Below, piece by piece: positions 16,044 through 35,447 of a DNA stretch of 64,000 bases. The notes beneath the pieces are model-generated. The model saw only the letters and a list, made by a program, of their open reading frames with translations, had not been told where the DNA came from and searched no databases. Position 1 is the stretch's first letter. Every line of letters starts with the position of its first letter. The position numbers and the translations under genes are program-made. The stretch lies in NCBI GenBank assembly GCA_016780065.1, contig JADHML010000001.1:1-64000 (forward strand), read 5' to 3'. This DNA comes from Flavobacteriaceae bacterium. Lineage in GTDB: Bacteria > Bacteroidota > Bacteroidia > Flavobacteriales > Flavobacteriaceae.

Positions 16044-16044
16044 C

Positions 16045-16117: not shown

Positions 16118-16121
16118 AATG

Positions 16122-16193: not shown

Positions 16194-18242
16194 ATGAAAG
16201 TTAAAGCTACGCTGTTAGCTTTTTTAATAGTTTCTTGTCAAACAGATTCATTTGATTTCGACAAGCTCAGCAGCCAAACTGGACTAGCTCCAGAAGTTCA
16301 ACTTCCTTTGGGAACAATCGAATTCCAAGCCCAAACCTTTTTAGATGACCTTGATTTTATTGTAGAGTATGACCGGGATGTCTATGGCACCATCTATCTT
16401 AAAGACACCATCTCTAATGTGGTCAGTGTTGGGGTAGATGACATATATGACGTTAATACGCTTTCGTCTGACTTTAATACAACATATACTATCGAGCCTG
16501 TTGAAATAGCCGATTTTCAAACAGGACTAGACCCTATATATGTCAGTCAAAAAGCACAACTCCCCGATGGTCAATTGATATTTATCCCTCCTTTTCCTGT
16601 GCCTATTCAGTATCAAGACACTTCCCTTTTATTCGAAGAATCCTTTAGCAATGTCGTTTTCGCTTCGGGAAGCTTAGATGTGACAATCACAAATTTCACC
16701 CCGATTTATCTAGAGCTCAACTTCGCGCTCAAAAATGCCGATGGAAATCAAATCTTTCAATTTGGTCCTTTGGGTTTAAATAGTGGAAATAACTATGTTC
16801 ACATGATCGATCTAGAGGGTATCAATGTAAGCCAAACCATTACAATGGATATAACGTTGGATTCCCCAGGCAGTGGGTCTTCTATGGTGCCTATCGATCA
16901 TAGCAATGATATGGTTGCCTTGGATCTTTCTCTAAAAGACGCCTCTGTTTCAGAAGCAACGCTGAGCGCAGATCGAACCTTTGAATACAGCTTTTCTAAG
17001 AATGTTTCTTTTAGCTCTGATGATGATGTGTCATTAAGACAATTAAACCTTCAAGAAGCACGCTTTCTTCTAGAGGTCGAAAATCAATTAGGCTTTGGCG
17101 CCAACCTATCCCTTAAAAGCATGGAGAGTTTTGTCGATAACAACAACCTAGAAAACAGCTTTTATCTTTCACCTTCTCCTAATTTACAGAACTTCCATTG
17201 GGAGATGAATAATGTGGAGCTAAACTTTACGGACAACCCTTCTTCTGGAGCCAGTGAAATATTACTTGATTTCGATGTCGATATTACATTAAATTCGGGT
17301 CAAACCATTAGAACCAATCAAGGATTTTTATTAAGTGGTCTGTTCGAAAATTTGGTTTTAGATACTGCCTTCGGAGATTTCGGAGTTTTGGAAGAAATTT
17401 CAGAGGAGTTCATCTCAGTTCAATCTGATTTGGATGACTTAACTGGTGAAGTTAGATTTGTTGAGCCCAAAATCGATTTATTTGTTCACAACTCATTTGG
17501 ATTACCCGCCAAGCTTCGTACCGAAATATCTGCCCAACGAAAAGATTTAAGCTCTCTTGATTTTATTGTTGAACCTTCTTTAGAAACACGATTTATTGAG
17601 GCCCCAACTGCGGTCTTTGACACGGCAACCACTCGTTTGACCTATGACGCAAACAACAGCAATATTGATGATTTGTTGGCTTTTATGCCAGATGACCAAA
17701 TTCATGCGAAGGTTTATTTTACAACCAACCCCCCTGAGTTGGCCTATGGGGAGAATTTCATCACAAGCAAATCCGAGTTTAGGTTAGATGCGGAGATTGA
17801 GACGCCTGCCCACTTCAACATTGATAATTTTGCCATCCAAGACACATTGTCCTTCTCAAAACCCATTCTTTCAGGGGAAAATATAGAAAAAATAACGGAG
17901 GCTAAAATGTATGTCAACTACACTTCCTCTTTACCACTAGAGCTAAACCTAGAAATGGAAATTATAGATTCTCAAACCCAAATGCTGTACACTACTTTGC
18001 CATCTGTTCTGATAAACCCCGCGCCCACTAATGATAACGGTGAGGTTGTCGGTAGCAATCAAAACGTAATTACATTGACGTTTGATAGTGAACAAATTAC
18101 AGCTCTTAAAAATGGCGATGCGATTGCGCTCAATATCACAACAAGCTCCACAGAAAAAGAAACAAAGAATGTTAAAATTTCAGCCAATGCATCTTTATCT
18201 TTTGATGTTTCTGTTGCTGTTAAAATTGATTTGGATGAATAG
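16194..18242 (+). CDS. Large lipoprotein of unknown function, first gene of the surface locus
   Basis: The protein has 682 residues. It starts with a very short lipoprotein signal, MKVKATLLAFLIVSC (lipid-modified Cys15), so it is membrane-anchored after export. The rest is rich in beta-strand-like alternation of hydrophobic and polar residues with many Asp/Asn/Ser, suggesting stacked beta-sandwich domains. No catalytic motif is visible. The stop overlaps the start of the next gene by 8 nt, so the two are translationally coupled and probably form a complex. I recognise this only as a lipoprotein that accompanies DUF5723-type genes in flavobacteria; the family function is not known to me. Confidence 0.75.
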   Translation: MKVKATLLAFLIVSCQTDSFDFDKLSSQTGLAPEVQLPLGTIEFQAQTFLDDLDFIVEYDRDVYGTIYLKDTISNVVSVGVDDIYDVNTLSSDFNTTYTIEPVEIADFQTGLDPIYVSQKAQLPDGQLIFIPPFPVPIQYQDTSLLFEESFSNVVFASGSLDVTITNFTPIYLELNFALKNADGNQIFQFGPLGLNSGNNYVHMIDLEGINVSQTITMDITLDSPGSGSSMVPIDHSNDMVALDLSLKDASVSEATLSADRTFEYSFSKNVSFSSDDDVSLRQLNLQEARFLLEVENQLGFGANLSLKSMESFVDNNNLENSFYLSPSPNLQNFHWEMNNVELNFTDNPSSGASEILLDFDVDITLNSGQTIRTNQGFLLSGLFENLVLDTAFGDFGVLEEISEEFISVQSDLDDLTGEVRFVEPKIDLFVHNSFGLPAKLRTEISAQRKDLSSLDFIVEPSLETRFIEAPTAVFDTATTRLTYDANNSNIDDLLAFMPDDQIHAKVYFTTNPPELAYGENFITSKSEFRLDAEIETPAHFNIDNFAIQDTLSFSKPILSGENIEKITEAKMYVNYTSSLPLELNLEMEIIDSQTQMLYTTLPSVLINPAPTNDNGEVVGSNQNVITLTFDSEQITALKNGDAIALNITTSSTEKETKNVKISANASLSFDVSVAVKIDLDE

Positions 18243-19656
18243 AACTACTTTTTCTAGAGGTTTTATTGGTTTGGTTTTTATTTTTGGAACCTACTCATCG
18301 GTTGGTCAAGACAATCTTACCTCATACCACCAAAAAAATAATATTGAAAAACTAACATTCAACCCCGCTCTGTATAAAGACGAGAAAGCTCATGCTCAGT
18401 TAGGGGTTATGAGTCTAGGAGTTGGTTCAAGCAGTAATTTTTTATACAGTGACCTTATACATAAAGGCACTGGAGCACTCTCAGACTCTCTGGTTATTGA
18501 CATTCCAAAGTTTAAGCTGGCTTTAGACAAAGACAATTACTTGAGTGTATCAGCCAGTTCGTCAATTTTCCACCTGATGGTACGAGGTGGAAAAAGAAAT
18601 TTTAGAAATCGAATCCCTAAATACCCTCATTATACAAGCTTTAGGATACGTAACCGAGTAACGGGTGGGTTCTTTTTCGACAAAAATTATATAGAGCTTT
18701 TTACTCAAGGAAACGCGCCTTTTTACAATGATTTTTTTCAAACAGGCCAGGCAAATATTGACATATCGGCCTTTACAGAAACAAGTGTTTCACATGGTCG
18801 TCAGCTTTCAAAACGTCTGTGGGTTGGCGTCAGGGCTAAGTTTTTGCATGGGCTTTATGACATCAAAACACAAGAGTTTTCACTAGGATTGCAAGGATTT
18901 GAATTTGAGAATTATGTAGACGTACAAGCGCAGGGGTCTATTTCGGTTTCGGGCCCTATTGAGTTGAGTCTTGATCAAAATGGATTTTTAACCGAGGTTG
19001 ACTTTCAGCCTTTTTCCAGCATCAATCCTTTTTCAATGAAAAACCCTGGCTATGCATTTGATTTAGGTTTGGTATATGAACTTTCCAATAATTTATTTTT
19101 GAGTTTGAGTGTAACAGATTTGGGTAAAATCACTTGGAGAGAGGATGTTCAACAAATTGCTTTGAACACTCAATACCGATATGAGCCTTTGAACTTTGAC
19201 AATTCTTACGATGATGATTCGACAGACTATGTAAATCCCAGTGACTTATTTGATGAGTTATCTGAAGATATAAAACAGGCCTTTGTTTGGACCGATCGAA
19301 CGGGAAGCTACTCTCAAACCTTGAACTCCAAGTTTTATGCAGGGCTCCAGTACAGCGTAAATACCAACTTTGATATTGGCTTGACTTATTTGAGGTCAAA
19401 AATTAAAAACTTCGAAAATCAAATATTAGCTCTTTCAGCCAATATGAAATTTTTGAATGTGCTTTCTTTTTCACCGACTTATATACATAGTAATGGTGTC
19501 AACCTTTTCGGTGGTGCCATTGGACTACAATTTGGATCGAGTCAAATTTATGCATCCGTTACTGATATTTCATCTTTGATTGACCCCGCGAACTCGTACA
19601 GACCAGAACTACAGCTGGGCTTTACGTTGTGTTTGGAAAAGGAACGAAACAGATAA
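18235..19656 (+). CDS. DUF5723-like outer-membrane beta-barrel protein
   Basis: The start is taken as the ATG at 18235 (MNRTTFSRGFIGLVFIFG), giving 473 residues. An open frame extends upstream, but it lies inside the preceding gene and lacks a signal peptide, whereas this start gives one directly (cleavage near SSVGQ). The mature protein has the NPAL motif after the N-terminus (LTFNPALYKDE), many amphipathic strands and alternating aromatics. This fits an outer-membrane barrel of the DUF5723 type, distantly like PorV/FadL-style proteins. It overlaps the lipoprotein gene by 8 nt and precedes the giant surface protein by about 100 nt. Function is unknown; a role in export or anchoring of surface material is inference. 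Confidence 0.7.
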   Translation: MNRTTFSRGFIGLVFIFGTYSSVGQDNLTSYHQKNNIEKLTFNPALYKDEKAHAQLGVMSLGVGSSSNFLYSDLIHKGTGALSDSLVIDIPKFKLALDKDNYLSVSASSSIFHLMVRGGKRNFRNRIPKYPHYTSFRIRNRVTGGFFFDKNYIELFTQGNAPFYNDFFQTGQANIDISAFTETSVSHGRQLSKRLWVGVRAKFLHGLYDIKTQEFSLGLQGFEFENYVDVQAQGSISVSGPIELSLDQNGFLTEVDFQPFSSINPFSMKNPGYAFDLGLVYELSNNLFLSLSVTDLGKITWREDVQQIALNTQYRYEPLNFDNSYDDDSTDYVNPSDLFDELSEDIKQAFVWTDRTGSYSQTLNSKFYAGLQYSVNTNFDIGLTYLRSKIKNFENQILALSANMKFLNVLSFSPTYIHSNGVNLFGGAIGLQFGSSQIYASVTDISSLIDPANSYRPELQLGFTLCLEKERNR

Positions 19657-19712
19657 ATAGAGAATATTAAAGAACGTACAATTTTTTTTAAATTATCGAG
19701 TTATTTAATAAC

Positions 19713-19720
19713 TATATTTG
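19713..19720 (+). promoter_or_regulatory. Candidate -7 element of the giant surface-protein gene
   Basis: TATATTTG matches TAnnTTTG in the AT-rich gap between the DUF5723-like gene and the ATG at 19756. No -33 TTG is apparent, so strength and regulation are unclear. Confidence 0.45.
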
Positions 19721-19755
19721 AAACAAGCTTTTGAATTAAACTATATTTTCCTCTT

Positions 19756-22700
19756 ATGTTCGGAGTTATGAGGTATTACCTTCTGTGTGTAACCACAATG
19801 GTGGTTGCCATGGCATCAATTGATTCAAGTTATGCTTTTACTTCACACGAGAATAATGTCCATAATCTTAACATTCTTCAAGCTCCTACCATTACACTTT
19901 TGGGAGATAATGAAATCATTCTTTCACAAGGTCAATTTTTTGATGAACCTGGATACGAAGCTTTTGATGTTGATGGAAATGATATTACAAGTGATGTGGT
20001 TGTTTCATATGATTTTGATGAAACGGCACCGCTCAATACTCCGGGCAACTATGTTGTTTCCTACAACGTAACCGATGCTGCAAACAATCCTGCTGCAGAG
20101 GTAACACGTACGGTAATCGTTCTTGACACCGAGCCCCCCGTGATTACGTTGAATGACCCGAACCCACTCACTCTCGATCAGGGAGAGGCTTTCACTGACC
20201 CAGGCTATTCCGCTATCGATAATGTTGATGGTGACATTACCAGCAATGTGGTTGTGGACCCACCCAATTTCAACACATCTGAGGCGGGAACCTTTACCAT
20301 TACATATAACGTAACTGATGCTGCTAACAACCCTGCCGAGGAACAAGTACGCACAGTAATCGTTCTTGACACCGAGGCCCCTGTGATTACTTTAAATGAA
20401 CCAAATCCATTTACGGTGAATCAGGGCCAAATTTTTACCGATCCCGGCTATTCCGCTATCGATAATGTTGATGGTGTCATTACAAGCAATGTGGTTGTAA
20501 ATCCAACAAATTTCGACACTTCTGAGGCAGGAACCTTTACCATAACTTATAACGTATCCGATGCCGCGGACAACCCTGCTGCAGAGGCTGTACGTACGGT
20601 GATTGTTCTTGATAAGGAGGCTCCTGTTATTATTTTGAATGACCCGAATCCACTCACACTCGATCAGGGCGAAGCTTTTACTGACCCAGGCTATTCCGCT
20701 ATCGACAATTTTGATGGTATCATTACCAGCAATGTAGTTGTCACCCCACCCGATTTCAATGCATCTGAGGCTGGAACCTTTATTCTTAGATACAACGTTT
20801 CCGATGCTGCGAACAATCCTGCTGCAGAGGTAACACGTACGGTAATCGTTCTTGACACCGAGTCCCCCGTGATTACGTTGAATGGCCCGAACCCATTCAC
20901 AGTAAATCAGGGTCAAGTTTTTACTGACCCCGGCTATGTGGCTACCGACAACTTTGATGGAAACATCACCTCAAATGTGGATGTGATCCCAACAGACTTC
21001 AGCACTTTAGAGGCCGGAACCTTTACCATTACATACAACGTGTCAGATGCTGCGAACAATCCTGCTGAGGAAAAAGTACGTACAGTAATTGTTCTGGACA
21101 CAGAAGCTCCTGTGATTACTTTGGATGGGGATAACCCCTACATTATACAAGTAGGGCTTCCGTATGTAGAGCCAGGAGTTTCTGCCATTGATAATGTTGA
21201 TGGAATCATCAACGAGTCTGAAATTTCAGTTGATTCAAACCTTAACGTCAATGAGGTCGGGGTTTACAGCATTGAATACACGGCAATTGATACTTCAGGG
21301 AATACAGCAAGCGAGACAAGAATTGTGCAAGTTGTTGACAATGAAGCTCCAATAATTAGCCTATTTGGCAGCCCTAATATTACTTTAAACCAAGGGGATG
21401 TTTATACCGATCCCGGCTATTCTGCTTCCGATAATGTTGATGGTGACATTACCAACAATGTAGTTGTAAATCCAACAGCTTTTGATACTTCAGAGGCAGG
21501 AACCGTTTTTATAAGTTATAACGTATCCGATTCTTCAGGCAATGCTGCTGAGGAAAAAATACGCACGGTGGTAGTTTTGGATACCGAAGCTCCTATCATA
21601 ACTTTGAGCCCCCCCAGTCCCTATACCGTAAACCAAGGACAGGTGTTTACCGATCCAGGGTATTCGGCAATCGATAATCTAGATGGCAACATTACATCTA
21701 ATGTAGTTGTCACACCATCTAATTTTAGTACCTCTGAGGCAGGTACATTCACCCTCAGATATAATGTTTCAGACGCTGCTAGCAATGATGCTGTTGAACA
21801 AACACGTACGGTCATTGTACTAGACACAGAGCCTCCCGTTATTGATATATTGGGTGCAAACCCGATGTCGATAAACCAAGGAGAATCTTATGTTGAACTT
21901 GGTGCTAGAGCAACTGACAACGTGGACGGAACCGTGACCCCAATCGATATAAACGGTAGTGTAGATAGTTCAACTCCTGGTATTTACAATATTGTATATT
22001 CAGCAACTGACTCCTCTGGAAATATCGGCACGGCCACCAGAGTTGTGAATGTGATTGATCAGATACCCCCTGTTATCACCGTTCTTGGGGACACTTCCCT
22101 TACAGTGAATCAGGATCAAGTATTTACCGATCCAGGATATACTGCCACCGACAATGTTGATGGTGATATTACGAACAATGTGGTTGTAACCCCACCAAAC
22201 TTTAATACCTCGCAGGCCGGTGTATTTGTAATTAGCTACAACGTTTCTGATGCCGCGGGTAATGCAGCAGCCACCAAAACCAGAACCATAGAAGTTCTTG
22301 ATACAGAAGACCCAGTGATTGTCTTTCTTGGAGGGAACCCAGACACAACCCCCTACGGAGAACCTTATGTGGAACCTGGAGTCTATGCCACGGATAATGT
22401 TGATGGCAACATCAATCAGACCGCTTTTAACATCAATTATACTACCCTAAACACCAATGCCCTTGGCACTTATAATGTGTCATATACGGTTTCAGATTCC
22501 TCAGGAAATACCGCCACAGCAAACAGAATTGTGAATGTGGTTGATGAGACGCCTCCTGTCATCAACATTCTTGGACAGATTTCAACTTCCATTGACCAAG
22601 GCGAACCCTATACAGATGCAGGAGCGACTGCTTTTGATCAAATTGATGGTGATTTGACCCCACGAATTGTTACCACTCCGGCAAGCTTAAACACTTCGTC

Positions 22701-25700
22701 AGCGGGTACTTTTTCTATTGAATACTCTGTGGTTGACAATGCTGGAAATGAAGCCACAGCAACTAGGACGGTGATTGTCAATGATACAGAACCCCCTGTA
22801 ATCACCCTATTGGGAGACAACCCTTTGGATATGGGTCAAGGGAGCGGCTATACTGAGCCAGGCTTTGAGGTGACCGACAATGTGGACAACAACCTTGCGG
22901 AGTTGCTTTCCCCAGACATATCAAATTTAGATGTCAATTCTCCGGGTGAATATGAAGTGTATTATGACATATCGGACAGTGCAGGCAACGATGCCGTACA
23001 ACAAGTAAGAACGGTTATTGTTCATCCATTACCTGGAACGCCCACGCAAATTTTTGACCCTGCTCAAACAATATATCAAGGGGATACGGGATTATCTTTT
23101 TCGGTTTCTTCGGTGACCAATGCAGATTCCTATGTGTGGAATTTCCCGTCTGGAGCGACCATAGTGAGTGGTAACGGTACAAACTCAGTTGTGGTTGATT
23201 TTTCAACAGATGCGGTAAGTGGTCAGGTAACGGTTTATGCAACAAACACTTATGGTGCTGGTCAAACAAGTCCTGTTTATAATTTGGTTGTTGAGCCCAA
23301 GCCCAAAGCCCTAACGGGCGACAATAGAGAGATTTGTTTGGGAGAAGAAACCATTCTCGGAGCAGCCTCAGTTCCAGGAAGTACGTATTCTTGGTCATCT
23401 GTTCCTGTAGATTCGAGTATCAATTTCCCTACAAGCTCCAACCCTACGGTTCAGCCTCAGGTAACGACCATTTATACGCTGACAGAAACGTTTTCAAATG
23501 GAGTTTCCACGACCAATTCCGTGCAAGTACTTGTGAATCCAGTACCACAGGCAGAGGTGATCTCAGACACCACTCTTTGCGAAAACCAATCCATTTCTAT
23601 TGGTGGGGATGGTGGAAACGGAAACACATTTAGTTGGACATCATTGCCTGCTGGTTTTAGTTCTTCTTTGGCCAATCCAACCTTGTCGCCAAGTGACCTC
23701 ACGCAGACCAGAACCTATTACCTGACCGAAACCAACCCATCTACGGGTTGTAGCACCACCAATTCTGTTACAATTACAGTAGAAGAATTACCTGTGATTT
23801 CTGCAGGTCCATCAAGTGATACTATCTGTGAAACTGAAAACCAATATCTCCTTGACCAAGCAACAAGCTCTCAAACTTCAGGGGTCGATTATCAGTGGAC
23901 CGTTGTTGGTGGTAATTCGAGTCAGTTTAGCGACTCAAATTCGTTAAATCCTGTCTTTACACCAAGTGCTCAGGATAAGGCCAATGGCAGTGTGTTGTTA
24001 CAACTTACAGCCACACCCAATGCCTTCTGTGCTGCTACGCCAGTGGTAAGTCAGCTTACTCTAAATTTTGAACCTGCTCCAATAGCAGACGCAGGACCTT
24101 CTGGTACCATATGCGGAGATGGAAGTTTCCAAATTGCTGCCACAGCAGCAAACGGAACCATTCGTTGGGAAGCTGTCGGTGCTACAAGAGGTTTCCTGAA
24201 CAATTACAACATCTCAAACCCCATTTACACACCTTCTGCTGAAGATGTGGCGGCGGGTCAGGCTTCCTTTAGACTTGTAGTATCACCCAACAACCCTTGT
24301 GACGAGGATGTAGATGGAGGTACTGTTACGATCAACATTACAGAGCCCCACTCGGTCTCATTGCCATCATCCTATGTGATGTGTGAAGATGATGCAAACA
24401 TTCAACTCTCGGCAACGATTCAAAACGAATCTTCCATTGTTTGGGAAACTTCTGGGGATGGTGTTTTTGTCCCAGCAAACGGAGCAAATACCTCTAATCC
24501 CATTTATCAACCAGGTCCTTCAGACATTGCAAATGGCGGTGCCACTCTCACGGTCAGGGTAGAAGGAAACGGTGTCTGTAGCGCAGAAAAACAGGCAGAG
24601 ACCCTTATTACAATCAATAAAAATCCGGTTGTCGACGCAGGTCCTCCTGGTACGTTTTGTGAAGATGGCATCGAACTAAGCAGTGCCTCAGCGACAAATT
24701 ATGATACCGTCACTTGGACGGTTATTGGGGGCAACGGACAGTTTTTACCCAACAATTTGGTTCCAAACCCGACCTATGTTCCAGGTCCTCTCGATTTTAC
24801 AAACGGAACAGTGACCCTAAAGATTGAGGCAACTCCGTTAGACTCATGCAGCGATACGGATTCAGACGTTGCGATTTTTGAGGTATATAACAATCCATTG
24901 GTCAATGCAGGTCCAGACGCTACCATTTGTGAAGGGGATTCATTTACACTCTCGCAAGCGACAGCAACTTATCAAACTTCTATTGAGTGGGTTACGAGTG
25001 GAACGGGTTCATTTAATGATCTTTCTGTTCGCAACCCCATTTATAGGCCCAGCCTTGCAGACATAGACAACCAGTCTGTTACCCTAACCATGAATGTGAC
25101 AGCTCAGGGCAGTTGCTCAGATGACCAGAATTCTATGGTCCTAAGTATTGTCAAAAAGCCTGTTATAGATGCCGGTTCAGACCTTACCCTCTGTCAAGGA
25201 GAGGAAGTTCAAATCAGTGCCAGTGCTCAATACTACGCTAGTATTCAGTGGACGAAGCAGGGTGGTTCGGGTGTGTTGCTCAATAACGATTCTCTAAGCC
25301 CGATTTATCAATCATCGCCCGATGATGTTGGAAGGATCACACTGACCATGACTGCACAGCCTTTGGACGCCAATGGCAATGCATGTGGAGTTCCTGTTTC
25401 TGATGAACTCATACTATTGGTAGGAGAAACCCCCACAGTAGAAGTGGGAGGCAATGCAACCATTTGTGAGGGAGAAAGTTTTTCATTTGAAAACGGTCGT
25501 GTTTCTGCGACCGAATACAGCAATTTGACTTGGACAGCGGTTGGTCAAGGAGATGGTACTTTTAGCGGAGGCAATTCCACCACACCCACCTATACGCCAG
25601 ACGCTTTTGACATTGGCAACGGAAGTGTGGTGTTGAGACTCACTGCTACACCAAACGAGCCCTGTTCAACGCCCGCAGTCGATGAAATGACCCTTTTCAT

Positions 25701-28700
25701 TACTCAAACACCAGAAGTGTATGCTGGTGAGGATGTCAGTTTGTGTGAAGACCAAAATGTACTAGTTGTTCAAGACGCGACTGCCACAAACTATGAAACC
25801 TTATTGTGGTCTTCTTCTGGGTCTTCAGGAACCCTTTCAAATCCAGATCAGCTCGAGGTTACCTATGTCCCATCAGCTCAAGACCTTGCTTTGGGTCAGA
25901 TTACCCTTACGCTAACAGCTACAGGTCCGTTGAGCTGTGGAGAAGTTGTTGTAGACACCAAAGCCATTTCATTTGTAAAAAATCCTGTTGCAAGTGCTGG
26001 CGCAGATGCACTAATTTGCGATACGGGAGGGTATGAATTGAGTGATGCAGAGGCAAGTGAGGCATCCTCAGTTATATGGGTATCCTCTGGAGATGGTATT
26101 TTTATACCCAGTCGTCAAGACTTAAACCCTACCTACATTCCTGGAAAAGAAGATATTGCCAATGGAGGAGACATTACACTTACACTCACGGCTTTATCCA
26201 ATAGCCCCTGTACCGAAAGTGTTTCAGATCCCATGCTGCTTACCTTGGATCCAAGTCCAAGAGTAGAGTTGGGTCCAGATAGATCCATATGTGAAGGCAG
26301 TGACTTGACGTTCGAGCTCATTGAAGGAGCAGATGTGGCACATGCGTCTTCTTATTGGTGGTCCACGTCTGGTGATGGACGTTTTACAAGCAGAACCGTT
26401 CTAAACCCTACCTACACCCCAGGCTCTTTGGACAAAAGCAATGGCGAAGCGATCACCCTGACATTGACCTTGGGAGGCAGCAGCACATGTACGAATACTG
26501 TTTCGGATTCTTTTGAATTGACCATTGTCGATCAACTTGTTGTGAATGCAGGGCCAGATGTTTCTATATGTGAGGATGGATACACCGTTTCTGGTGCGGG
26601 TCAAACCCAAAACTTTAGCAGTGTGTTGTGGACGATTTCTGAAGGATCTGGAACATTGCAAAACCCCAACTCACTTACTCCAACCTTTATTCCGAGTTCA
26701 GATGGCGTTATTGCGGGGCAAGCCAAACTCCTGCTCACTGCCGAACCCATAGCGCCGTGTGAAGGAACACTAACAGACGAGATTGTGTTGTCTATTGACG
26801 CAAACCCTGTAGTCGAAGCAGGACTTCCTATCACCATTTGTGAAGGAGAAACAATCAATGTAAATGGAGCAAGTGTAACAGTACCTAACGGGGGTTATCT
26901 TTGGTCATCTTCAGGAAATGGGATTCTTAAGGGAGCCGATACGCTAACCCCGACCTATATTCCAAGCCCTGAAGAAATTCAAGCTCAGCAAGCGGTCCTT
27001 GCCTTAACGGCCCAAGCGACCGGTGCTTGCTCTGGAGAAATTTCGGACCAGCTAATCATACAAATCAATCCCAAACCAGAGGTGTATGCAGGTGAAAACA
27101 TCACCATTTGTGAGGGTGAATCATTTACGACCTCTCAGGCGTTTGTAAACGATGGTGCAAACCCTGTTTGGAGCACCTCGTCAACTAATGAATTGTTTCC
27201 GTTTTCAGATCCAAATTCAGTAATCACTACCTACACACCTACAGAGGCAGATATAACCAATGGCTTCGTTGATCTTACACTTACCGCCGACCCGTTGGCT
27301 CCTTGTTCAGGAACCGAATCTTCTACGATTCGACTGAGTATCAGCCGTGCGCCTGTAATCAACGCAACAACCACCCTAGCCACCATTTGTGACAACGAAA
27401 CTTATACGGTCAGTGGGCTTACCGCAGATTTTGTAACTACCTACTCATGGGACACCGATGGAGATGGTAGATTCTCAAACCGAACCATTGCTGAGCCTGA
27501 ATACATCCCTGGACCGAATGACAAAACCTCTGGCGGGGCAACTCTGACCCTAACCGCTACTGGGCTCACGGGTTGTGTTCCCATTCCCCAAGATATTGAG
27601 CTGACCATAGACCCCTCTCCAGAAATTATATTGCAAACCAATTCGATTTCTACATGTTCATCTACAGACCCTGTTGTGCTCAGTGGGAATATTATCAATT
27701 ATGAATCTGCAATTAGCTGGACGTCAAGCGGGGTGGGAGGCAGCTTTGTTAATTCAGATGACCCCAATCCAGAATACACACCTTCCGCACAAGATCTTGC
27801 CAACGGTGAGGTTACCCTAACGGTAGAGGCTACACCGACCAACTCATGCACAGTGTCTGCCTTCAAGGATGTGACGATTTATTTTGTGGATCGAGTGGTT
27901 GTAGATGCAGGAAGCCATCAAACCATTTGTGAGGGTTCTTCATACCTAGTTCAAGGAGCTGATTTGGATAATCACAGCAGTTTTACTTGGATCACATCTG
28001 GAGACGGTCAGTTTTTAAATTCCAACACACTCACTCCTGAGTATATCCCCGGAAATGGCGATATCAACTTGGGCAGCGCGACACTGACCCTTCGAGCCGA
28101 CGGATTGGCTGGGTGTTCAGATTCAGATGAGGATTCAATCATACTGACCATTGCCCGCAAAGCTACGGCAGATGCCGGTCCAGAAACCGACACCAGCTGT
28201 CAAAACGCTCCTTATGCACTTGCGGGGATTGCAACCAATGAATTAAGCGTAGAATGGTTGACTAGTGGCGATGGTGGATTTACTGATATTTACGACCGCA
28301 ATCCAAATTATAACCCTGGTCCAAATGACATCCTCAATGGTAGGGTGACGCTCACTTTTAGAGCCTATAGTCAAAGCCCGTGTACTGATTTTACTGAAGA
28401 CACCCTTATTTTAGATCTCCAATCGCCGCCCACGGTCGATGCAGGACCTGATGATGAGGTTTGTATCGGGGAGTCCTATGCAATCTCCAATGCTACCATA
28501 TTAAACACACCCAATGGCACGCCAGGGGTGCTCAATCAAGATTATCAATCGATCAAATGGATAACCGATGGATCGGGTACGTTTAGTGATGATAGTGTCA
28601 TCAACCCAACCTATATACCCACTTCCACGGATTATGCCAATGGATCTGTAAGGTTAACCCTTCAAGTCACCCCTTCAGCAGCATGTGATTCGGGGAATAC

Positions 28701-31700
28701 CATTGATGCCTATTTTGATTTGTCTTTCAAAGATCCTGTGTCTGGAACGGGAGTGATCAATGGAGTCAATGACTTTTGTGAAGGAACAGGCCCTTATGAT
28801 TATGAAATCACTGGACTGACAGGAACAACAGGCTACAATTGGAGTGTGAATCGCCTTTCAGCTCAAATTCTAGCTGATACAGACCCTAATGATGAGTTTG
28901 TCCGAATCGATTTTACAGAGCCGGGCAATTATGTCCTTACTGCCACGCCATTCAACAGCTGTGGCAATGCCGACCCTGTAAGTTATAATGTGACGGTAAA
29001 CCCCGATGGGGAACTTACGCATGACCCGGTAAGGGGTGCTTTAGATCAGGAGTTGTGTGAGGGAGTTTCGATCGATCCGATTGCCTTTGTAATAGGGGGC
29101 AGTACGGTCAATGCGACCATCGCTTGGGTAGATGAGCAAGGTGATCCAATCACAATTGATCCGTTTTCGTTTAGTCAAAACGGCAATGTATTTACGATAT
29201 CAGGGCTAAGCGGAGATATTTCTAGTACTCAGATCTATTCTTATACTGTCACTCCCGACAACGGTGGCTGTGTAGAGCCTCTTCCGATTACGGGTACGAT
29301 TACGATAAACCCCGATGGTGAGATTACGCATCTTACTGAAGACCCAACAGATCCTACGATTTCATTAGGTGCTTTGGATCAGACGCTTTGTGAGGGCGAG
29401 GCGATTGATGACATTGTATTTAGTGTAAGTGGAGGTGCTACGGATGTTGTAGTAGATGGTTTGCCTTTGGGTGTTGAGTATGTGTTTTCAAGCAATGTTC
29501 TCACGCTTTACGGAACTCCTTCGGATGACATCGACGGACAGGTTCGCATTCCTTACAGTGTTACCACTACAGGCAGTGGATGTGAGGAGCCTACACCGAT
29601 TACAGGATTGTTTATCATCAACCCTGATGGTGATCTTGCGCATGACCCCAACAGCGGCACTTTGAATCAGGAGTTGTGTGAGGGAGTTGCGATCGATCCG
29701 ATTGATTTTGTAATAGGGGGCAGTACGGTCAATGCGACCATCTCTTGGTTAGATGAAGACGGATCAACGGTTTCTCCGGCTGGATTTACATTTACACGAA
29801 GTGGCAATGTATTTACGATATCAGGGCTAAGCGGAGATGTTCCTAGTACTCAGATCTATTCTTATACTGTCACTCCCGACAGCGGTGGCTGTGTAGATCC
29901 CAATCCAATTACGGGTACGATTGTCGTAAACCCAGATGGTGATATTGCTCACGATCCTTCCAATGGTTCTATGGTTGATCAGATTCTTTGTGAAGGCGAG
30001 GCGATTGATCCAATTGAGTTTACCATTAGTGGTGGCGCAACAGGCGCGACGGTTACAGGACTACCAGCTGGAGTGACAGGTTCACTATTTGGTAGTGTAT
30101 TCACCATTTCAGGGGTTCCTACAGACGATATTTCTTCACCACAGTTGTACACTTATACCATCGACACAACTGGCAGTGCTGGTTGTGACGAAGGTCAGCT
30201 AACGGGTACGATTGCTGTAAACCCAGATGGTGAGATTGCTCACGATCCTTCCAATGGTTCTATGGTTGATCAGATCCTTTGTGAGGGTGACTCGATTGAT
30301 TCAATTGAGTTTACCATTAGTGGTGGCGCAACAGGCGCGACGGTTACAGGTTTACCAGCTGGAGTAATAGGTTCACTAAGTGGTAGTGTATTCACCATTT
30401 CAGGGGTTCTTACAGACAATATTTCTTCACCACAGTTATACACTTATACCATCGACACGACTGGCAGTGCTGGTTGTGACGAAGGTCAGCTAACGGGTAC
30501 GATTGCTGTAAACCCAGATGGTGAGATTGCACACGATCCTTCCAATGGTTCTATGGTTGATCAGATCCTTTGTGAGGGTGACTCGATTGATCCAATTGAG
30601 TTTACCATTAGTGGTGGCGCAACAGGTGCGACGGTTACAGGTTTACCAGCTGGAGTGACAGGTTCACTAAGTGGTAGTGTATTCACCATTTCAGGGGTTC
30701 CTACAGACGATATTTCTTCACCACAGTTGTACACTTATACTATCGACACGACTGGCAGTGCTGGTTGTGACGAAGGTCAGCTAACGGGTACGATTGCTGT
30801 AAACCCAGATGGTGATATCGCTCATGACCCTAACAGCGGCGCTTTGGATCAGACGCTTTGTGAGGGTGAGCCGATAGAGGATATTATCATTACTATAGGA
30901 GGTGGAGCCACAGCCGTAACGGTTACAGGTCTGCCCACAGGGGTGTCTGATACCTATGATAGCGCGACCAAAACGTTGACCATTTCAGGTGTACCTGCCA
31001 ATACCCAGCCCATTTTCAACTATATCATCACAACAACGGGGAGTGGATTGTGTGATGAACAAAGTTTAACAGGTAGCATTGCCATCAATCCGGACGGTAA
31101 TATTACTCACGATACGACACAAGGCTCGACCGATCAAGAAGTATGTGAGGGCAGCCCCATAGTCGATATCGTTTTTGCTGTTGGCGGTGGTGCTACGGAT
31201 GTGTTGGTTACAGGCTTGCCTTTTGGGGTTACCCATTTGCTTTCAAGTGGAGTTCTGACAATTTCCGGAACTCCATTGGATGATATCAGTGCCCAACAAG
31301 TCTACAATTACACCATCACAAGTGTTTCTGGCTTTTGTCCGGATGTTTTGACTGGGACGATTGTTGTAAACCCTGATGGTGATATTGCTCATGATCCTAA
31401 TAGCGGTTCTTTGGATCAGACCGTTTGTGAAGGCGCATTCATAGAGGATATCGAGTTTACCATTGGAGGAGGAGCCAGTGCTGTAAATGTTACTGGATTG
31501 CCCACGGGTGTTTCATACGCAGTAAATGGTAATACTGTGGTTATCTCAGGAATTCCTTCTAGCAGTCCTCCGCAAACCTTCAATTACACCATCACAACTA
31601 CTGGTAGTAATACTTGTAATGAGTCTTCAATTTTAGGAGTTATCGATACCAAACCCTCATTCTCAATAAGTCCTAGTTTTGAAGTACAGCCATTGGTTTG

Positions 31701-33195
31701 CTATGGAAATGAGGATGCATTCATTGAAGTGGACTTAACAGGTATTTTAACGCCTAATGAATCTTACACAGCTCGTTGGACAGGCGTGGGTGGTTTGAGT
31801 CTAGGCTATGAGAAAACTCAGCTTAACATCAATGACTCTGACACCAGTGTTATCGCCGAAAACTTACAAGCGGGTTCCTATGTGTTTGAGCTATGGGATA
31901 ATGAAGCTCAACAATGTGGTTATGTATCTGACCCAATCCTTATAGACGAAGTAAAACCCATATTTGTTCTCGCTGAACCCATTGACCCTGATAGTATTTC
32001 AGGCAATACAGTCACACTCACGGATGAGAATGGCGATGCCTTTACATACACTTCAACTTCTTCGAATGGTGGATATGTTCAAAAACCGTCATGTGAATCA
32101 ACCTCTGATGATGGGATCATAAAAATTCAAATTTTTGGAAACGACTATTTGAATACCGAAATCGAATGGGAATTTAAGGCTTTGACCTCTAATATATGGG
32201 TAAGCCTTACTACTTTGGACAACCAAGATCTTATAACAGGGCGTGCTGAAGGAATCTACAGAGTAACAGTAACAGAGAAGGATCCGCAAAATTCTGCTCG
32301 CTTGTGTTCTGTTCAAAGAGAAATACCACTCATCCGAGATGTAGTAGAGGTTCAAAACCTATGTATGGGCGAACCAGGGTATTTGTCTATTGAGTTGGTT
32401 GATTTTATTGGCACTCCCACATTTACTTACAACGAAGAGGTTATTGTACCCCTTCAAGGGCCAGATGTAATAGACCTTATCAGTACTTATGTCTTGCCCA
32501 TCACACTCATTGAAGACGCAGATCTTGTGATCTCCAACGAAGACAATTGCAGCCGAACCATTCCTACCATGGATGTTAACAATTTTGGTATCCTCAATCT
32601 TGAGGATAGTGTCCTGCCCGATCCTGATTTTATTTACACCAGCGTTTCCTCGAGAAGAAGCCAAGGATTAAAAGTTGGGGAAGATGTCACTTTTGAAGTA
32701 GATGATCCGAATGACCGATACTACAGTCTTGAGTGGGATTTTGGAGATGGTTCTCCAACAGTCTTGACCACTGACAAACAAGTCACCCATATTTTCGATA
32801 GAGAACAGGTTTATGATGTTACACTTACCGTTTATGGAAAAGAGGATGGGTGTTTAAAACAAATCACAAAACCAGTTCAGATTGGCGGTGGGTATGTCTT
32901 GCTTTTGCCCAATGTGTTTACTCCCAATGGCGATGGTATCAACGATGAGTTTTTACCGGAGTTCACTGGCTTTAAAAATATTTCGATGAGCATCTTCGAT
33001 GCTTCCGGAAGCTTGTTATTTGAGTCGATAAACGAACGAGGAAGTGATTTCTTTAGTACAGATGTGCCCATCATCAAACCATGGGACGGGGCCAATGCAG
33101 ACTTGACAAATAAGTTGTTTGTTTGTCACATTGTTGGAACTCTGTTTAATGACGAGATTGTCACCAAAACAACTACAATTCAAATATTAAAGTAA
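19756..33195 (+). CDS. Giant repeat surface protein with T9SS type B sorting domain (SprB-like adhesin)
   Basis: This 4479-residue protein has a signal peptide ending near residue 28 (SSYAF). Thirteen DUF5011-type Ig-like repeats follow (about residues 43-1090), each with DNVDGDIT-like and YNVSDAAGN-like motifs. A PKD-like segment and two SprB-type repeats come next. Then come about 18 repeats of ~91 residues with TICEG and a second Cys (1352-2995), a PKD-like stretch, and nine NPDG repeats (3082-3964). A degenerate tail leads to a PKD domain (YSLEWDFGDGSP) and the type B C-terminal domain (NVFTPNGDGINDEF to the end). That domain directs secretion by the type IX (Por) system. No enzyme motif is visible. 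The best reading is a long filamentous adhesin like SprB of gliding flavobacteria. It is followed after 1 nt by a SprF/PorP gene. Confidence 0.92.
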   Translation: MFGVMRYYLLCVTTMVVAMASIDSSYAFTSHENNVHNLNILQAPTITLLGDNEIILSQGQFFDEPGYEAFDVDGNDITSDVVVSYDFDETAPLNTPGNYVVSYNVTDAANNPAAEVTRTVIVLDTEPPVITLNDPNPLTLDQGEAFTDPGYSAIDNVDGDITSNVVVDPPNFNTSEAGTFTITYNVTDAANNPAEEQVRTVIVLDTEAPVITLNEPNPFTVNQGQIFTDPGYSAIDNVDGVITSNVVVNPTNFDTSEAGTFTITYNVSDAADNPAAEAVRTVIVLDKEAPVIILNDPNPLTLDQGEAFTDPGYSAIDNFDGIITSNVVVTPPDFNASEAGTFILRYNVSDAANNPAAEVTRTVIVLDTESPVITLNGPNPFTVNQGQVFTDPGYVATDNFDGNITSNVDVIPTDFSTLEAGTFTITYNVSDAANNPAEEKVRTVIVLDTEAPVITLDGDNPYIIQVGLPYVEPGVSAIDNVDGIINESEISVDSNLNVNEVGVYSIEYTAIDTSGNTASETRIVQVVDNEAPIISLFGSPNITLNQGDVYTDPGYSASDNVDGDITNNVVVNPTAFDTSEAGTVFISYNVSDSSGNAAEEKIRTVVVLDTEAPIITLSPPSPYTVNQGQVFTDPGYSAIDNLDGNITSNVVVTPSNFSTSEAGTFTLRYNVSDAASNDAVEQTRTVIVLDTEPPVIDILGANPMSINQGESYVELGARATDNVDGTVTPIDINGSVDSSTPGIYNIVYSATDSSGNIGTATRVVNVIDQIPPVITVLGDTSLTVNQDQVFTDPGYTATDNVDGDITNNVVVTPPNFNTSQAGVFVISYNVSDAAGNAAATKTRTIEVLDTEDPVIVFLGGNPDTTPYGEPYVEPGVYATDNVDGNINQTAFNINYTTLNTNALGTYNVSYTVSDSSGNTATANRIVNVVDETPPVINILGQISTSIDQGEPYTDAGATAFDQIDGDLTPRIVTTPASLNTSSAGTFSIEYSVVDNAGNEATATRTVIVNDTEPPVITLLGDNPLDMGQGSGYTEPGFEVTDNVDNNLAELLSPDISNLDVNSPGEYEVYYDISDSAGNDAVQQVRTVIVHPLPGTPTQIFDPAQTIYQGDTGLSFSVSSVTNADSYVWNFPSGATIVSGNGTNSVVVDFSTDAVSGQVTVYATNTYGAGQTSPVYNLVVEPKPKALTGDNREICLGEETILGAASVPGSTYSWSSVPVDSSINFPTSSNPTVQPQVTTIYTLTETFSNGVSTTNSVQVLVNPVPQAEVISDTTLCENQSISIGGDGGNGNTFSWTSLPAGFSSSLANPTLSPSDLTQTRTYYLTETNPSTGCSTTNSVTITVEELPVISAGPSSDTICETENQYLLDQATSSQTSGVDYQWTVVGGNSSQFSDSNSLNPVFTPSAQDKANGSVLLQLTATPNAFCAATPVVSQLTLNFEPAPIADAGPSGTICGDGSFQIAATAANGTIRWEAVGATRGFLNNYNISNPIYTPSAEDVAAGQASFRLVVSPNNPCDEDVDGGTVTINITEPHSVSLPSSYVMCEDDANIQLSATIQNESSIVWETSGDGVFVPANGANTSNPIYQPGPSDIANGGATLTVRVEGNGVCSAEKQAETLITINKNPVVDAGPPGTFCEDGIELSSASATNYDTVTWTVIGGNGQFLPNNLVPNPTYVPGPLDFTNGTVTLKIEATPLDSCSDTDSDVAIFEVYNNPLVNAGPDATICEGDSFTLSQATATYQTSIEWVTSGTGSFNDLSVRNPIYRPSLADIDNQSVTLTMNVTAQGSCSDDQNSMVLSIVKKPVIDAGSDLTLCQGEEVQISASAQYYASIQWTKQGGSGVLLNNDSLSPIYQSSPDDVGRITLTMTAQPLDANGNACGVPVSDELILLVGETPTVEVGGNATICEGESFSFENGRVSATEYSNLTWTAVGQGDGTFSGGNSTTPTYTPDAFDIGNGSVVLRLTATPNEPCSTPAVDEMTLFITQTPEVYAGEDVSLCEDQNVLVVQDATATNYETLLWSSSGSSGTLSNPDQLEVTYVPSAQDLALGQITLTLTATGPLSCGEVVVDTKAISFVKNPVASAGADALICDTGGYELSDAEASEASSVIWVSSGDGIFIPSRQDLNPTYIPGKEDIANGGDITLTLTALSNSPCTESVSDPMLLTLDPSPRVELGPDRSICEGSDLTFELIEGADVAHASSYWWSTSGDGRFTSRTVLNPTYTPGSLDKSNGEAITLTLTLGGSSTCTNTVSDSFELTIVDQLVVNAGPDVSICEDGYTVSGAGQTQNFSSVLWTISEGSGTLQNPNSLTPTFIPSSDGVIAGQAKLLLTAEPIAPCEGTLTDEIVLSIDANPVVEAGLPITICEGETINVNGASVTVPNGGYLWSSSGNGILKGADTLTPTYIPSPEEIQAQQAVLALTAQATGACSGEISDQLIIQINPKPEVYAGENITICEGESFTTSQAFVNDGANPVWSTSSTNELFPFSDPNSVITTYTPTEADITNGFVDLTLTADPLAPCSGTESSTIRLSISRAPVINATTTLATICDNETYTVSGLTADFVTTYSWDTDGDGRFSNRTIAEPEYIPGPNDKTSGGATLTLTATGLTGCVPIPQDIELTIDPSPEIILQTNSISTCSSTDPVVLSGNIINYESAISWTSSGVGGSFVNSDDPNPEYTPSAQDLANGEVTLTVEATPTNSCTVSAFKDVTIYFVDRVVVDAGSHQTICEGSSYLVQGADLDNHSSFTWITSGDGQFLNSNTLTPEYIPGNGDINLGSATLTLRADGLAGCSDSDEDSIILTIARKATADAGPETDTSCQNAPYALAGIATNELSVEWLTSGDGGFTDIYDRNPNYNPGPNDILNGRVTLTFRAYSQSPCTDFTEDTLILDLQSPPTVDAGPDDEVCIGESYAISNATILNTPNGTPGVLNQDYQSIKWITDGSGTFSDDSVINPTYIPTSTDYANGSVRLTLQVTPSAACDSGNTIDAYFDLSFKDPVSGTGVINGVNDFCEGTGPYDYEITGLTGTTGYNWSVNRLSAQILADTDPNDEFVRIDFTEPGNYVLTATPFNSCGNADPVSYNVTVNPDGELTHDPVRGALDQELCEGVSIDPIAFVIGGSTVNATIAWVDEQGDPITIDPFSFSQNGNVFTISGLSGDISSTQIYSYTVTPDNGGCVEPLPITGTITINPDGEITHLTEDPTDPTISLGALDQTLCEGEAIDDIVFSVSGGATDVVVDGLPLGVEYVFSSNVLTLYGTPSDDIDGQVRIPYSVTTTGSGCEEPTPITGLFIINPDGDLAHDPNSGTLNQELCEGVAIDPIDFVIGGSTVNATISWLDEDGSTVSPAGFTFTRSGNVFTISGLSGDVPSTQIYSYTVTPDSGGCVDPNPITGTIVVNPDGDIAHDPSNGSMVDQILCEGEAIDPIEFTISGGATGATVTGLPAGVTGSLFGSVFTISGVPTDDISSPQLYTYTIDTTGSAGCDEGQLTGTIAVNPDGEIAHDPSNGSMVDQILCEGDSIDSIEFTISGGATGATVTGLPAGVIGSLSGSVFTISGVLTDNISSPQLYTYTIDTTGSAGCDEGQLTGTIAVNPDGEIAHDPSNGSMVDQILCEGDSIDPIEFTISGGATGATVTGLPAGVTGSLSGSVFTISGVPTDDISSPQLYTYTIDTTGSAGCDEGQLTGTIAVNPDGDIAHDPNSGALDQTLCEGEPIEDIIITIGGGATAVTVTGLPTGVSDTYDSATKTLTISGVPANTQPIFNYIITTTGSGLCDEQSLTGSIAINPDGNITHDTTQGSTDQEVCEGSPIVDIVFAVGGGATDVLVTGLPFGVTHLLSSGVLTISGTPLDDISAQQVYNYTITSVSGFCPDVLTGTIVVNPDGDIAHDPNSGSLDQTVCEGAFIEDIEFTIGGGASAVNVTGLPTGVSYAVNGNTVVISGIPSSSPPQTFNYTITTTGSNTCNESSILGVIDTKPSFSISPSFEVQPLVCYGNEDAFIEVDLTGILTPNESYTARWTGVGGLSLGYEKTQLNINDSDTSVIAENLQAGSYVFELWDNEAQQCGYVSDPILIDEVKPIFVLAEPIDPDSISGNTVTLTDENGDAFTYTSTSSNGGYVQKPSCESTSDDGIIKIQIFGNDYLNTEIEWEFKALTSNIWVSLTTLDNQDLITGRAEGIYRVTVTEKDPQNSARLCSVQREIPLIRDVVEVQNLCMGEPGYLSIELVDFIGTPTFTYNEEVIVPLQGPDVIDLISTYVLPITLIEDADLVISNEDNCSRTIPTMDVNNFGILNLEDSVLPDPDFIYTSVSSRRSQGLKVGEDVTFEVDDPNDRYYSLEWDFGDGSPTVLTTDKQVTHIFDREQVYDVTLTVYGKEDGCLKQITKPVQIGGGYVLLLPNVFTPNGDGINDEFLPEFTGFKNISMSIFDASGSLLFESINERGSDFFSTDVPIIKPWDGANADLTNKLFVCHIVGTLFNDEIVTKTTTIQILK
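19882..23025 (+). repeat. 13 tandem DUF5011-like Ig repeats (about 240 bp each)
   Basis: Each unit runs from P(P/A)VITL to VIVLDTE, about 78-82 residues. The DNA shows a higher-order pattern: units 2+3 resemble units 4+5 at a 486-nt offset, and a block ending unit 1 is repeated almost exactly 729 nt later at the end of unit 4. Later units are more diverged. Confidence 0.85.
23809..28740 (+). repeat. About 18 tandem ~91-residue repeats with two cysteines
   Basis: Units begin DAGPxxTICEG and contain W.SSGDG.F, NPTYIPG..DI.NG and TLTLTA, with a second Cys about 60-65 residues after the first. They end before the next NAG/DAG. Regular Cys spacing suggests one disulfide per domain in the extracellular protein. 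They resemble PKD/Ig-like folds but I cannot name a database family. Confidence 0.8.
28999..31647 (+). repeat. Nine NPDG repeats (about 93-105 residues each)
   Basis: Each unit starts NPDG(E/D)(I/L)(A/T)H, contains a CEG motif and an FTISG or similar strand, and ends TGTI.V or close variants. Units 1 and 3 share near-identical DNA segments, and units 4-6 are nearly identical to each other. Confidence 0.85.
29931..30803 (+). repeat. Three nearly identical 291-bp tandem copies
   Basis: The boundary CCCAGATGGT recurs at a spacing of exactly 291 nt (ending at 29940, 30231, 30522 and 30813). The three copies differ at only a small number of positions, far fewer than other units in the gene. This points to recent duplication or ongoing gene conversion. 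Copy number changes here would keep the reading frame, as 291 is divisible by 3. Confidence 0.9.
32899..33192 (+). other. T9SS type B C-terminal sorting domain
   Basis: The last ~100 residues begin at LPNVFTPNGDGINDEF and end TKTTTIQILK, the pattern of gliding-motility-associated C-terminal (type B) domains. A PKD domain precedes it (EWDFGDGSP, about 32730-32760). It marks the protein as a type IX secretion substrate. Confidence 0.92.
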
Positions 33196-33196
33196 T

Positions 33197-34201
33197 ATGA
33201 AAAAGCTTGTGATATATATTTGTTTTGTGATTGTCTGGAGCGCAACACACGCCCAAGACACTTATTTTAATCAAATCCGCCATACCCAGTTCACAAACCC
33301 CAGTTTTTATGGACTCAATACCCAATCATTTGCTGGGGTGGGCTACAACTCTATTTCATACACTACTAATGCATCTATAGACACCAAAATATTCTATGGA
33401 GTAAAGAGTTTTGATGATTTAAACTTTAGCATTTCTGCCGATTTCTCCAACTTTATGATTAGTCAATATGGACTGTCACAAAACATCCTAAACCTTTCCT
33501 ACATCTATAAATTACAGATTGCTAATGGCGCTTATCTGCTCCCTAGCATCAGTGCGGGATTGGGTTTTAATCAATTAAGAAAACCAGATTTAATTTTTGG
33601 AGATCAATTAGATCTCCCTAATGCGACTTATTCGAATGTTTCTAACGATCCTCTTTCTTATGCTGGATTGAGTAGCAATTATCTAGATTTAGGAGCGGCC
33701 ATCATGCTTTATAATGAAAATTTCATGGTAGGGGCTTCAATAAAACATTTGAATAAGCCAGACATTTCAATGAACAAGGAGTACAATCTCAAAAAACCGA
33801 TGAGTATTTCTTTTCAAGCGGCATATGAAAGAGATATCAATTATTTTAATAGAGGGTTTTTGCCGCCAGATTCCTTTTTGTATTTATATACTTCAGCCAC
33901 TTCAGCTGGAGACTTGATGAGGGTATATGCGGGTCAAGAGCTTATCCTTGGTGGCTTAACCTTAGGGGTTCATGAAATATTTACTTCCAACAAATCATCT
34001 AATGCAACCTTGTTAGGGGTGAACTTCGGCTTGAATGTGGAGGTGTATGAGTTTAATTTTTCTTACAACTTCCCTTTATCAAGAAATCAAAGTGTATATC
34101 CTCCTAACATATTTGAGCTCTCCATGACCATCAAGTTTGATCGGTTTCTTAGAAATAACCTAGGTTATTTCAAGCGATTAAAAACAGACGGCTTTTATTA
34201 G
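33197..34201 (+). CDS. PorP/SprF family type IX secretion membrane protein
   Basis: The protein has 334 residues with a signal peptide ending THAQ. The family hallmark DTYFNQIRHTQFTNPSFYG follows, then a predicted outer-membrane beta-barrel. SprF of Flavobacterium johnsoniae is needed to localise SprB to the cell surface, and PorP/SprF paralogues usually sit directly after type B substrates. Here the gene starts 1 nt after the stop of the giant protein gene, so it is co-transcribed and likely its dedicated export partner. It contains no SprB-like adhesin region itself. Confidence 0.92.
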   Translation: MKKLVIYICFVIVWSATHAQDTYFNQIRHTQFTNPSFYGLNTQSFAGVGYNSISYTTNASIDTKIFYGVKSFDDLNFSISADFSNFMISQYGLSQNILNLSYIYKLQIANGAYLLPSISAGLGFNQLRKPDLIFGDQLDLPNATYSNVSNDPLSYAGLSSNYLDLGAAIMLYNENFMVGASIKHLNKPDISMNKEYNLKKPMSISFQAAYERDINYFNRGFLPPDSFLYLYTSATSAGDLMRVYAGQELILGGLTLGVHEIFTSNKSSNATLLGVNFGLNVEVYEFNFSYNFPLSRNQSVYPPNIFELSMTIKFDRFLRNNLGYFKRLKTDGFY

Positions 34202-34211
34202 CCACACACAA

Positions 34212-35447
34212 TTAGTTGTCTTTTATAAATCCTTGGCTTACTTCAAAACAGCGTAAGTCAAAATAGGATACAGCAGCCAATAGATGGTCAAAAATATCAG
34301 CGGTGATATGCTCATAGTTTTTCCATACTTTATCACTGCTAAATGCGTAAATTTCAAGAGGTGTGCTTCCATAAGAAGTAGTGGGTAACTGCCTGCACAT
34401 AATGGTGAGTTCGTTGCTGATTTTTGGATGGTGTTCTAAGTAATTCTCGATATACTTTCGGTATAATCCCAAATTAGTCAAGTTTCTTCCATTGATTGCC
34501 AAACTTTTATCTACATCTTGATTGGCTTTTTCAATCTCTTCTTTGCGTTCTTTTAGATAACTGGCAACACGTTCAATGCGTTGTAAATCGGTCAACTCTT
34601 CGTCTTTAAGAAACCGAATGCTTTGAGTTTGTATCAGCATAGACCTTTTGATACGGCGCCCGCCCGACTCAGCCATTCCACGCCAATTTTTAAACGAGTC
34701 GGATATCAAGTTGTAAGTGGGAATGGTCGTGATGGTCTTGTCAAAATTTTGAACCTTAACCGTGGACAGATTTATTTCAATAACATCTCCGTCAGCCCCA
34801 TATTTTTCCATGGTTACCCAATCTCCGATACGGACCAAATCATTGGCTGCAATTTGAATACTCGCTACAAATCCTAATATGGTATCTTTAAAAATCAACA
34901 ACAATACGGCTGATAAGGCACCCATAGCGGTCAAAAAGTAACCAATTTCCCTACCCGTAATTATTGAGAACAAAACGACTATACCAACAACCCATATCAC
35001 AATCATAAAGACCTGTATGTAGCTATCTATGGGTTTGTCTTTAAAAGATTCGAGGGTTCTTAAGTAACTGCGGATTGCATGAAGCAAACTGCGTAATATC
35101 CAAACGGTTATAAGTACTCCGTAAGCATTAAGAATGGTGTTGAGTACATCGCTCACTCCTATACGATCTATGACCCAAATGGGAAGTACCGCATTCAAAA
35201 AGAAATAAGGAAATAATTGGGCAACATAGGTTGGGAATCTTGCCTCCAATAGATAGTCGTCAAGATGCGTTTTGGTGCGTCTGGCCAAACGTTTAAAAAG
35301 ACCTTTGACCAAACCTTTGGCCATTAGGTCCAGGCCAACGGCTACTATAATTAAGACAATGCTTACTGCCAAAAAATCGACCCACCATATCAAATCGACA
35401 TTCCATCCTTTATCAAGAAGAAACTCTAAAAGTATTTTACGATCCAT
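34212..35447 (-). CDS. ybdG: MscS-family mechanosensitive channel, YbdG type
   Basis: The protein has 411 residues with several N-terminal membrane segments. The MscS core contains DWVTMEKYGADGDVIEINLS, KVQNFDKTITTIPTYN and SFKNWRGMAESGGRRIKRS. This combination matches Escherichia coli YbdG, a small-conductance member of the MscS superfamily that responds to mild osmotic downshock. It resides in the inner membrane. The start at 35447 fits a TATTTTTG element at 35468-35461 on the same strand. It converges on the SprF gene (10 nt apart). Confidence 0.93.
   Translation of the reverse strand: MDRKILLEFLLDKGWNVDLIWWVDFLAVSIVLIIVAVGLDLMAKGLVKGLFKRLARRTKTHLDDYLLEARFPTYVAQLFPYFFLNAVLPIWVIDRIGVSDVLNTILNAYGVLITVWILRSLLHAIRSYLRTLESFKDKPIDSYIQVFMIVIWVVGIVVLFSIITGREIGYFLTAMGALSAVLLLIFKDTILGFVASIQIAANDLVRIGDWVTMEKYGADGDVIEINLSTVKVQNFDKTITTIPTYNLISDSFKNWRGMAESGGRRIKRSMLIQTQSIRFLKDEELTDLQRIERVASYLKERKEEIEKANQDVDKSLAINGRNLTNLGLYRKYIENYLEHHPKISNELTIMCRQLPTTSYGSTPLEIYAFSSDKVWKNYEHITADIFDHLLAAVSYFDLRCFEVSQGFIKDN

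Follow-up and report, generated by a model that had tools for sequence, protein, structure and literature searches.

The window analysed here is a 64,000-nucleotide stretch of contig JADHML010000001.1 from a Flavobacteriaceae bacterium. Between a tRNA-Asp gene and a gene of the mechanosensitive-channel family it carries four genes on one strand, which encode a lipoprotein, a predicted outer-membrane barrel of the DUF5723 family, a giant type B T9SS substrate and a PorP/SprF-type carrier. The features of the locus are as follows.

15970-16044, plus strand: tRNA-Asp (ARAGORN), the left border of the site in the genus
16121-16151, plus strand: terminator-like hairpin after tRNA-Asp (simple consensus scan)
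16194-18242, plus strand: lipoprotein, 682 aa; lipobox LIVSC with Cys15 at 16236-16238
18235-19656, plus strand: DUF5723 predicted outer-membrane barrel, 473 aa (PF18990 match)
19713-19747, plus strand: promoter-like matches before the giant gene, TATATTTG and TTGAAA-18-TATATT
19756-33195, plus strand: giant type B T9SS substrate, 4479 aa (CHU_C domain match)
19879-23022, plus strand: 13 Ig-like repeats of about 81 aa (residues 42-1089 of the giant)
23284-28644, plus strand: 20 repeats of about 90 aa (residues 1177-2963)
29011-31656, plus strand: 9 repeats of about 97 aa (residues 3086-3967)
32905-33192, plus strand: C-terminal sorting domain, CHU_C from residue 4384 (Pfam match)
33197-34201, plus strand: PorP/SprF-type carrier, 334 aa (PF11751 match)
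34212-35447, minus strand: mechanosensitive-channel family (MscS-type) gene, the right border of the site in the genus

The four plus-strand genes of the initial annotation were borne out as open reading frames, as were the 8-nucleotide overlap of genes 1 and 2 and the 1-nucleotide gap between genes 3 and 4. A simple consensus scan of the plus strand found no terminator-like site in the gaps of the four genes. The start of gene 2 was placed at the ATG at 18235; the mechanical open reading frame begins at a TTG at 18082. The GC content is 0.384 for the lipoprotein/DUF5723 pair, 0.452 for the giant gene and 0.363 for the carrier gene.

The 99-nucleotide gap preceding the giant gene contains a promoter-like octamer at 19713-19720 and, at 19718-19747, a second match agreeing with 10 of 12 consensus positions. 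The TAnnTTTG motif shows no enrichment over the window (62 found against 66.75 expected) and a sigma-70 scan of the window scores no higher than shuffles (46 against 43.1), so that neither a single transcript nor two transcripts are demonstrated by these matches. The likeness of the gap to the region upstream of the giant gene in congeners is borderline, 56-85 of 1000 shuffles scoring equally high. A sequence similar to the hairpin at 16121-16151 is found upstream of the giant gene in congeners.

The C-terminus of the giant protein is a marginal match to CHU_C (29.5 bits, Pfam cut-off 27) and falls below the cut-off of the NCBIfam type B signal TIGR04131 (19.9 against 35 bits). The carrier, likewise a marginal case, matches PorP_SprF (PF11751) with 50 bits (cut-off 22.3) and lies below the cut-off of NCBIfam TIGR03519 (81.9 against 90.55). 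The two Pfam matches support the earlier assignment of genes 3 and 4 as a type B substrate and its carrier, and together they are an ordinary type B unit. Within the giant gene a 291-nucleotide DNA unit is present in 3.2 copies with 94% identity at 29911-30831, a recent repeat expansion. A second giant of about 2180-2196 aa, seen at L184:12328-19953, L185:7194-14774 and L186:11665-19248, diverges from a PorP/SprF-type gene instead of being followed by it, the usual order for such pairs having the carrier downstream; here the 5' ends of the giant and carrier frames overlap by a few bases or more.

SprF bears a Cys-X-Cys tail as its tie to the gliding track, according to the excerpted part of PMC12635249. 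This tail was not found in the window carrier (P0004), whose sole cysteine is residue 9, in the signal peptide. The 13 genomes of the genus gave 25 PF11751 matches, 24 of which were read (L179, containing runs of N, was left out). None of the 24 has a cysteine pair in its tail; two of them, L180 and L181, lie near GldJ, a position that suggests PorV. Carriers encoded after giants in other f1 genomes do have the Cys-X-Cys tail. A tree of 30 carriers places those of the window's site in a single clade (100/100), apart from the carriers having the tail; the branch of this clade is long and was flagged by the program. Other carriers of the genus, 333-353 aa long and including L164, L169 and L173, are nested among the Cys-X-Cys carriers yet are tailless, looking as if the lineage dropped its coupling to the track while retaining GldJ.

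The T9SS machinery is present in the organism. GldJ scores over its cut-off in all 13 genomes of the genus, the window's own included, and gldKLMN-like genes, named by reading, lie on the window's contig. SprA was found in 11 of the 13 genomes; the window's own, which is 58% complete, is not among these. The GldK-like protein on the contig has Cys17 and Cys377, the second of which we infer to be the docking cysteine. Since the carrier lacks the Cys-X-Cys tail while GldJ is kept, a static adhesin is predicted: judged from these sequences, the window's adhesin is probably not driven along the track. The proposal that it is moved along the cell surface, made by analogy with SprB, thus conflicts with a carrier whose only cysteine is Cys9. 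Because the track genes are present, movement by another coupling would be possible.

Gene 2 is a full-length match to DUF5723 (182.6 bits, cut-off 26.8), in agreement with the DUF5723-like barrel originally proposed. No paper naming DUF5723 was found in the open PMC library searched. The lipoprotein belongs to no Pfam or NCBIfam family; the cysteine of its lipobox, Cys15, is kept in all 14 aligned relatives. Searches of PDB sequences with genes 1, 2 and 4 gave no convincing match, and two structure predictions had mean pLDDT values of 42.1 and 44.1, too poor for a fold search. A first scan of genome contigs with the single DUF5723 protein gave 85 pattern stretches, and a scan of viral contigs gave 109, with no relative among either. 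A first lipoprotein profile had been contaminated by a fused frame from genome G005, and a cleaned profile was made without it.

The arrangement of the site was surveyed in 13 genomes of the window's genus and one further record (L189), all of them incomplete drafts. The genus comprises uncultured marine-type Flavobacteriaceae drafts (six loci). The borders of the site are tRNA-Asp and the MscS-type gene; the tRNA-Asp border also occurs in the stretches from G008, G002, G007, G009 and G001. The order giant-carrier-lipoprotein-DUF5723 is seen between both borders in G010 and G008 and in the right-hand parts available from G012, G005 and L189. G009 and G004, whose contigs end inside the lipoprotein gene, have the right-hand order of G010 and G008. 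The window has the order lipoprotein-DUF5723-giant-carrier, and in G012 the site holds two DUF5723 genes. The arrangement is not readable in the drafts of G001, G003 and G011.

Some giants of the genus have no pair beside them. G002 and G007, in which both borders are seen, and G006, known from its right-hand part, have the giant and the carrier only. No DUF5723 match was found elsewhere in these three drafts, and a search of their gaps for remnants of the pair gave nothing better than an E value of 0.028. In G005 what is left of the pair is fused and has a stop close to the signal peptide (L058:8553-9602); an intact giant end and carrier lie beside it.

DUF5723 was matched in 63 of 99 related genomes, and the pair recurs across Flavobacteriales. 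There were 79 DUF5723 match rows, 7 in the genus and 72 outside it, and 27 of the outside loci were examined with flanks of 5-8 kb to the left and 3-31 kb to the right (the right flank being under 5 kb in G096, G077 and G065). Upstream of DUF5723 these 27 loci have a long lipoprotein in 13 cases, a short one in 11 and none in 3. The cleaned lipoprotein profile keeps the 13 long lipoproteins; among the short ones (176-215 aa) it matches only those of G070, G038 and G044. When run against 349 genomes of the family, the lipoprotein profile matched five: G000, G004, two genomes of another genus, g190 (G216 and G392), and, weakly, G287.

None of the 27 DUF5723 loci outside the window's genus and g190 has an adjacent giant (type B CTD) or carrier on the same strand, which indicates that the module also occurs independently of giants. 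Within 5 kb, 1 of the 27 has a type B CTD or carrier, and within 10 kb 3 of them do, always on the opposite strand. The g190 genomes differ from these. G216 has a giant end and carrier, followed by gldN- and gldK-like genes on the opposite strand and then by the pair, and in G392 the giant start diverges from the pair. Over the 20 kb available from G287 the pair has no giant nearby. In G216 the genes resembling gldN and gldK (L195:3192-5601, minus strand) adjoin with no gldL or gldM between them, which is either a rearrangement or a fault of the draft assembly. In all, the pair and a giant gene occur together or within 3 kb of each other in four arrangements over two genera, the window's and g190, although related species are not independent evidence of linkage. 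The pair is therefore usually far from giants at the loci examined outside the two genera and close to them inside, and the tie between pair and giant gene that had been proposed is supported within that range.

The pair of the window is related to that of G216, with 59% identity in the lipoprotein and 61% in DUF5723, as against 31-33% and 38-40%, respectively, for congeners and 30% for the second copy of G012. Window and G216 were joined at 100/100 in both the lipoprotein and the DUF5723 trees; these were second trees, the lipoprotein one omitting the G078, G082, G062_2 and G072_2 rows and the DUF5723 one drawing on a subset. Core genes lean towards the congeners instead. Over dnaE residues 1-266 the window is 66.5% identical to G008, 64.9% to G002, 59.3% to G216 and 58.1% to G392, and its GldK is 54.9% identical to that of G004 and 51.1% to that of G216. 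The window's carrier likewise sides with congeners (38-40% against 32.5%). The module has a conflicting ancestry, which could be explained either by horizontal transfer of the pair or by differential loss of two old copies. A simple reordering within the genus was rejected: first trees free of g190 grouped the window's DUF5723 and lipoprotein with those of its congeners, but adding G216 and G392 paired the window with G216. By sequence comparison, the pair and the giant unit have separate histories, yet end up together.

The sprCDBF locus was reportedly first described by Rhodes et al. in 2011. In the excerpt of PMC5879114 the Flavobacterium operon sprC-sprD-sprB-sprF has four genes, and that of PMC9723704 gives the layout as remFG-sprCDBF. 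The initial annotation suggested that the window's locus might be an adhesin system larger than the known SprB/SprF pair, a contrast that cannot be kept given that, in these excerpts (PMC5879114, PMC9723704), the published locus already has four genes. As in F. johnsoniae and F. psychrophilum, two genes precede a giant type B adhesin and a PorP/SprF carrier on one strand. For comparison, sets of SprC, SprD, SprB and SprF were collected from five f1 genomes of the same family (G033, G013, G023, G029 and G036), the names being assigned from gene order and tail. These sets contain a secreted protein, a barrel, a giant and a carrier with the Cys-X-Cys tail, in that order. A CHU_C sorting domain (53.3 bits) is present in SprC (G033, L126:439-2619, minus strand) and a PorP/SprF barrel (185 bits) in SprD (G013, L132:1574-3682, plus strand), which gives sprC-sprD the look of another substrate/carrier pair next to sprB-sprF.

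Type B pairs include some that move and some that are static, the latter being thought to be held by PorE-like proteins, according to the excerpt of PMC12618676. The static kind represented there by Fjoh_3952/Fjoh_3951 resembles the window in having the substrate gene directly followed by that of its shuttle. The static operons described in the same excerpt contain a PorE-like gene, in place of which the window has the lipoprotein/DUF5723 pair; no OmpA or PorE-type family was matched by any of the four window proteins.

The likeness in gene order made it natural to expect the window's locus to be sprCDBF, and a diverged gliding operon with an adhesin driven along the track would also accord with the presence of GldJ and of a GldK having the non-lipobox Cys377. 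However, in profile comparison with the five-genome sets the lipoprotein family matched SprC with a probability of 0.6%, and the DUF5723 family matched SprD with 11.7% (E 0.0025, one comparison). SprD of G013 is a PorP/SprF barrel whereas gene 2 matches only DUF5723, and a search with that SprD found nothing in the window's genome and only short barrel-like matches in some congeners. Together with a carrier that lacks the twin cysteines of SprF and falls in its own, albeit long-branched, clade, these results led us to reject the locus as sprCDBF and make a diverged, driven version of it the least credible of the explanations. That the pair is a required part of the export of the adhesin is scarcely more probable: the tight spacing of pair, giant and carrier in the window and congeners would suit such a role, but G002, G007 and G006 have giant and carrier without the pair. 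Of the earlier suggestion of extra anchoring or export parts, the linkage to the giant stands and the necessary export part does not.

A more serious alternative, to which we give a sizeable minority share of the probability, is that the genes are passive neighbours. The site after tRNA-Asp would then collect surface genes, and the pair would have an unrelated outer-membrane job. The distance of the pair from giants at most of the 27 outside loci fits this explanation, as do its absence or breakdown in four congeners (G002, G007 and G006; G005), the possible promoter of the giant gene and the differences in GC content among pair, giant and carrier. It accounts less well for the pair and giant lying together or within 3 kb in four arrangements of two genera despite the changed order, and for a proximity that holds although the window's pair has another ancestry.

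We consider it an even chance that the pair accompanies a static giant adhesin as a dispensable partner with an inheritance of its own. The comparisons suggest a helper that would be tied to the adhesin without being required by it, a partner role that we infer from linkage. T9SS would export the giant repeat protein as an adhesin, which the PorP/SprF-type barrel of the next gene downstream would receive from the translocon and hold on the surface. A carrier without the Cys-X-Cys tail would form no bond with GldK of the gliding track, leaving the adhesin in place. The lipoprotein and DUF5723 barrel would be a separate two-gene outer-membrane module, an optional partner beside or near the giant, most likely bracing, spacing or modifying the adhesin complex at the outer membrane. 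In a fuller version the pair would be inherited as a unit, pass from species to species and time and again come to lie next to giant type B adhesins, which it would provide with a static outer-membrane anchor instead of PorE or the track; the marine lineage concerned would have retained GldJ while its carriers lost the twin-cysteine coupling. This version is unlikely to hold in all its parts.

The carrier tail, with or without Cys-X-Cys, offers a testable sequence rule for telling driven from static giant T9SS adhesins. For DUF5723, a family with no assigned function, the locus also supplies a first genomic setting. If the companion role is true, the gliding track and PorE would be joined by the pair as a third means of attaching giant adhesins to the outer membrane.
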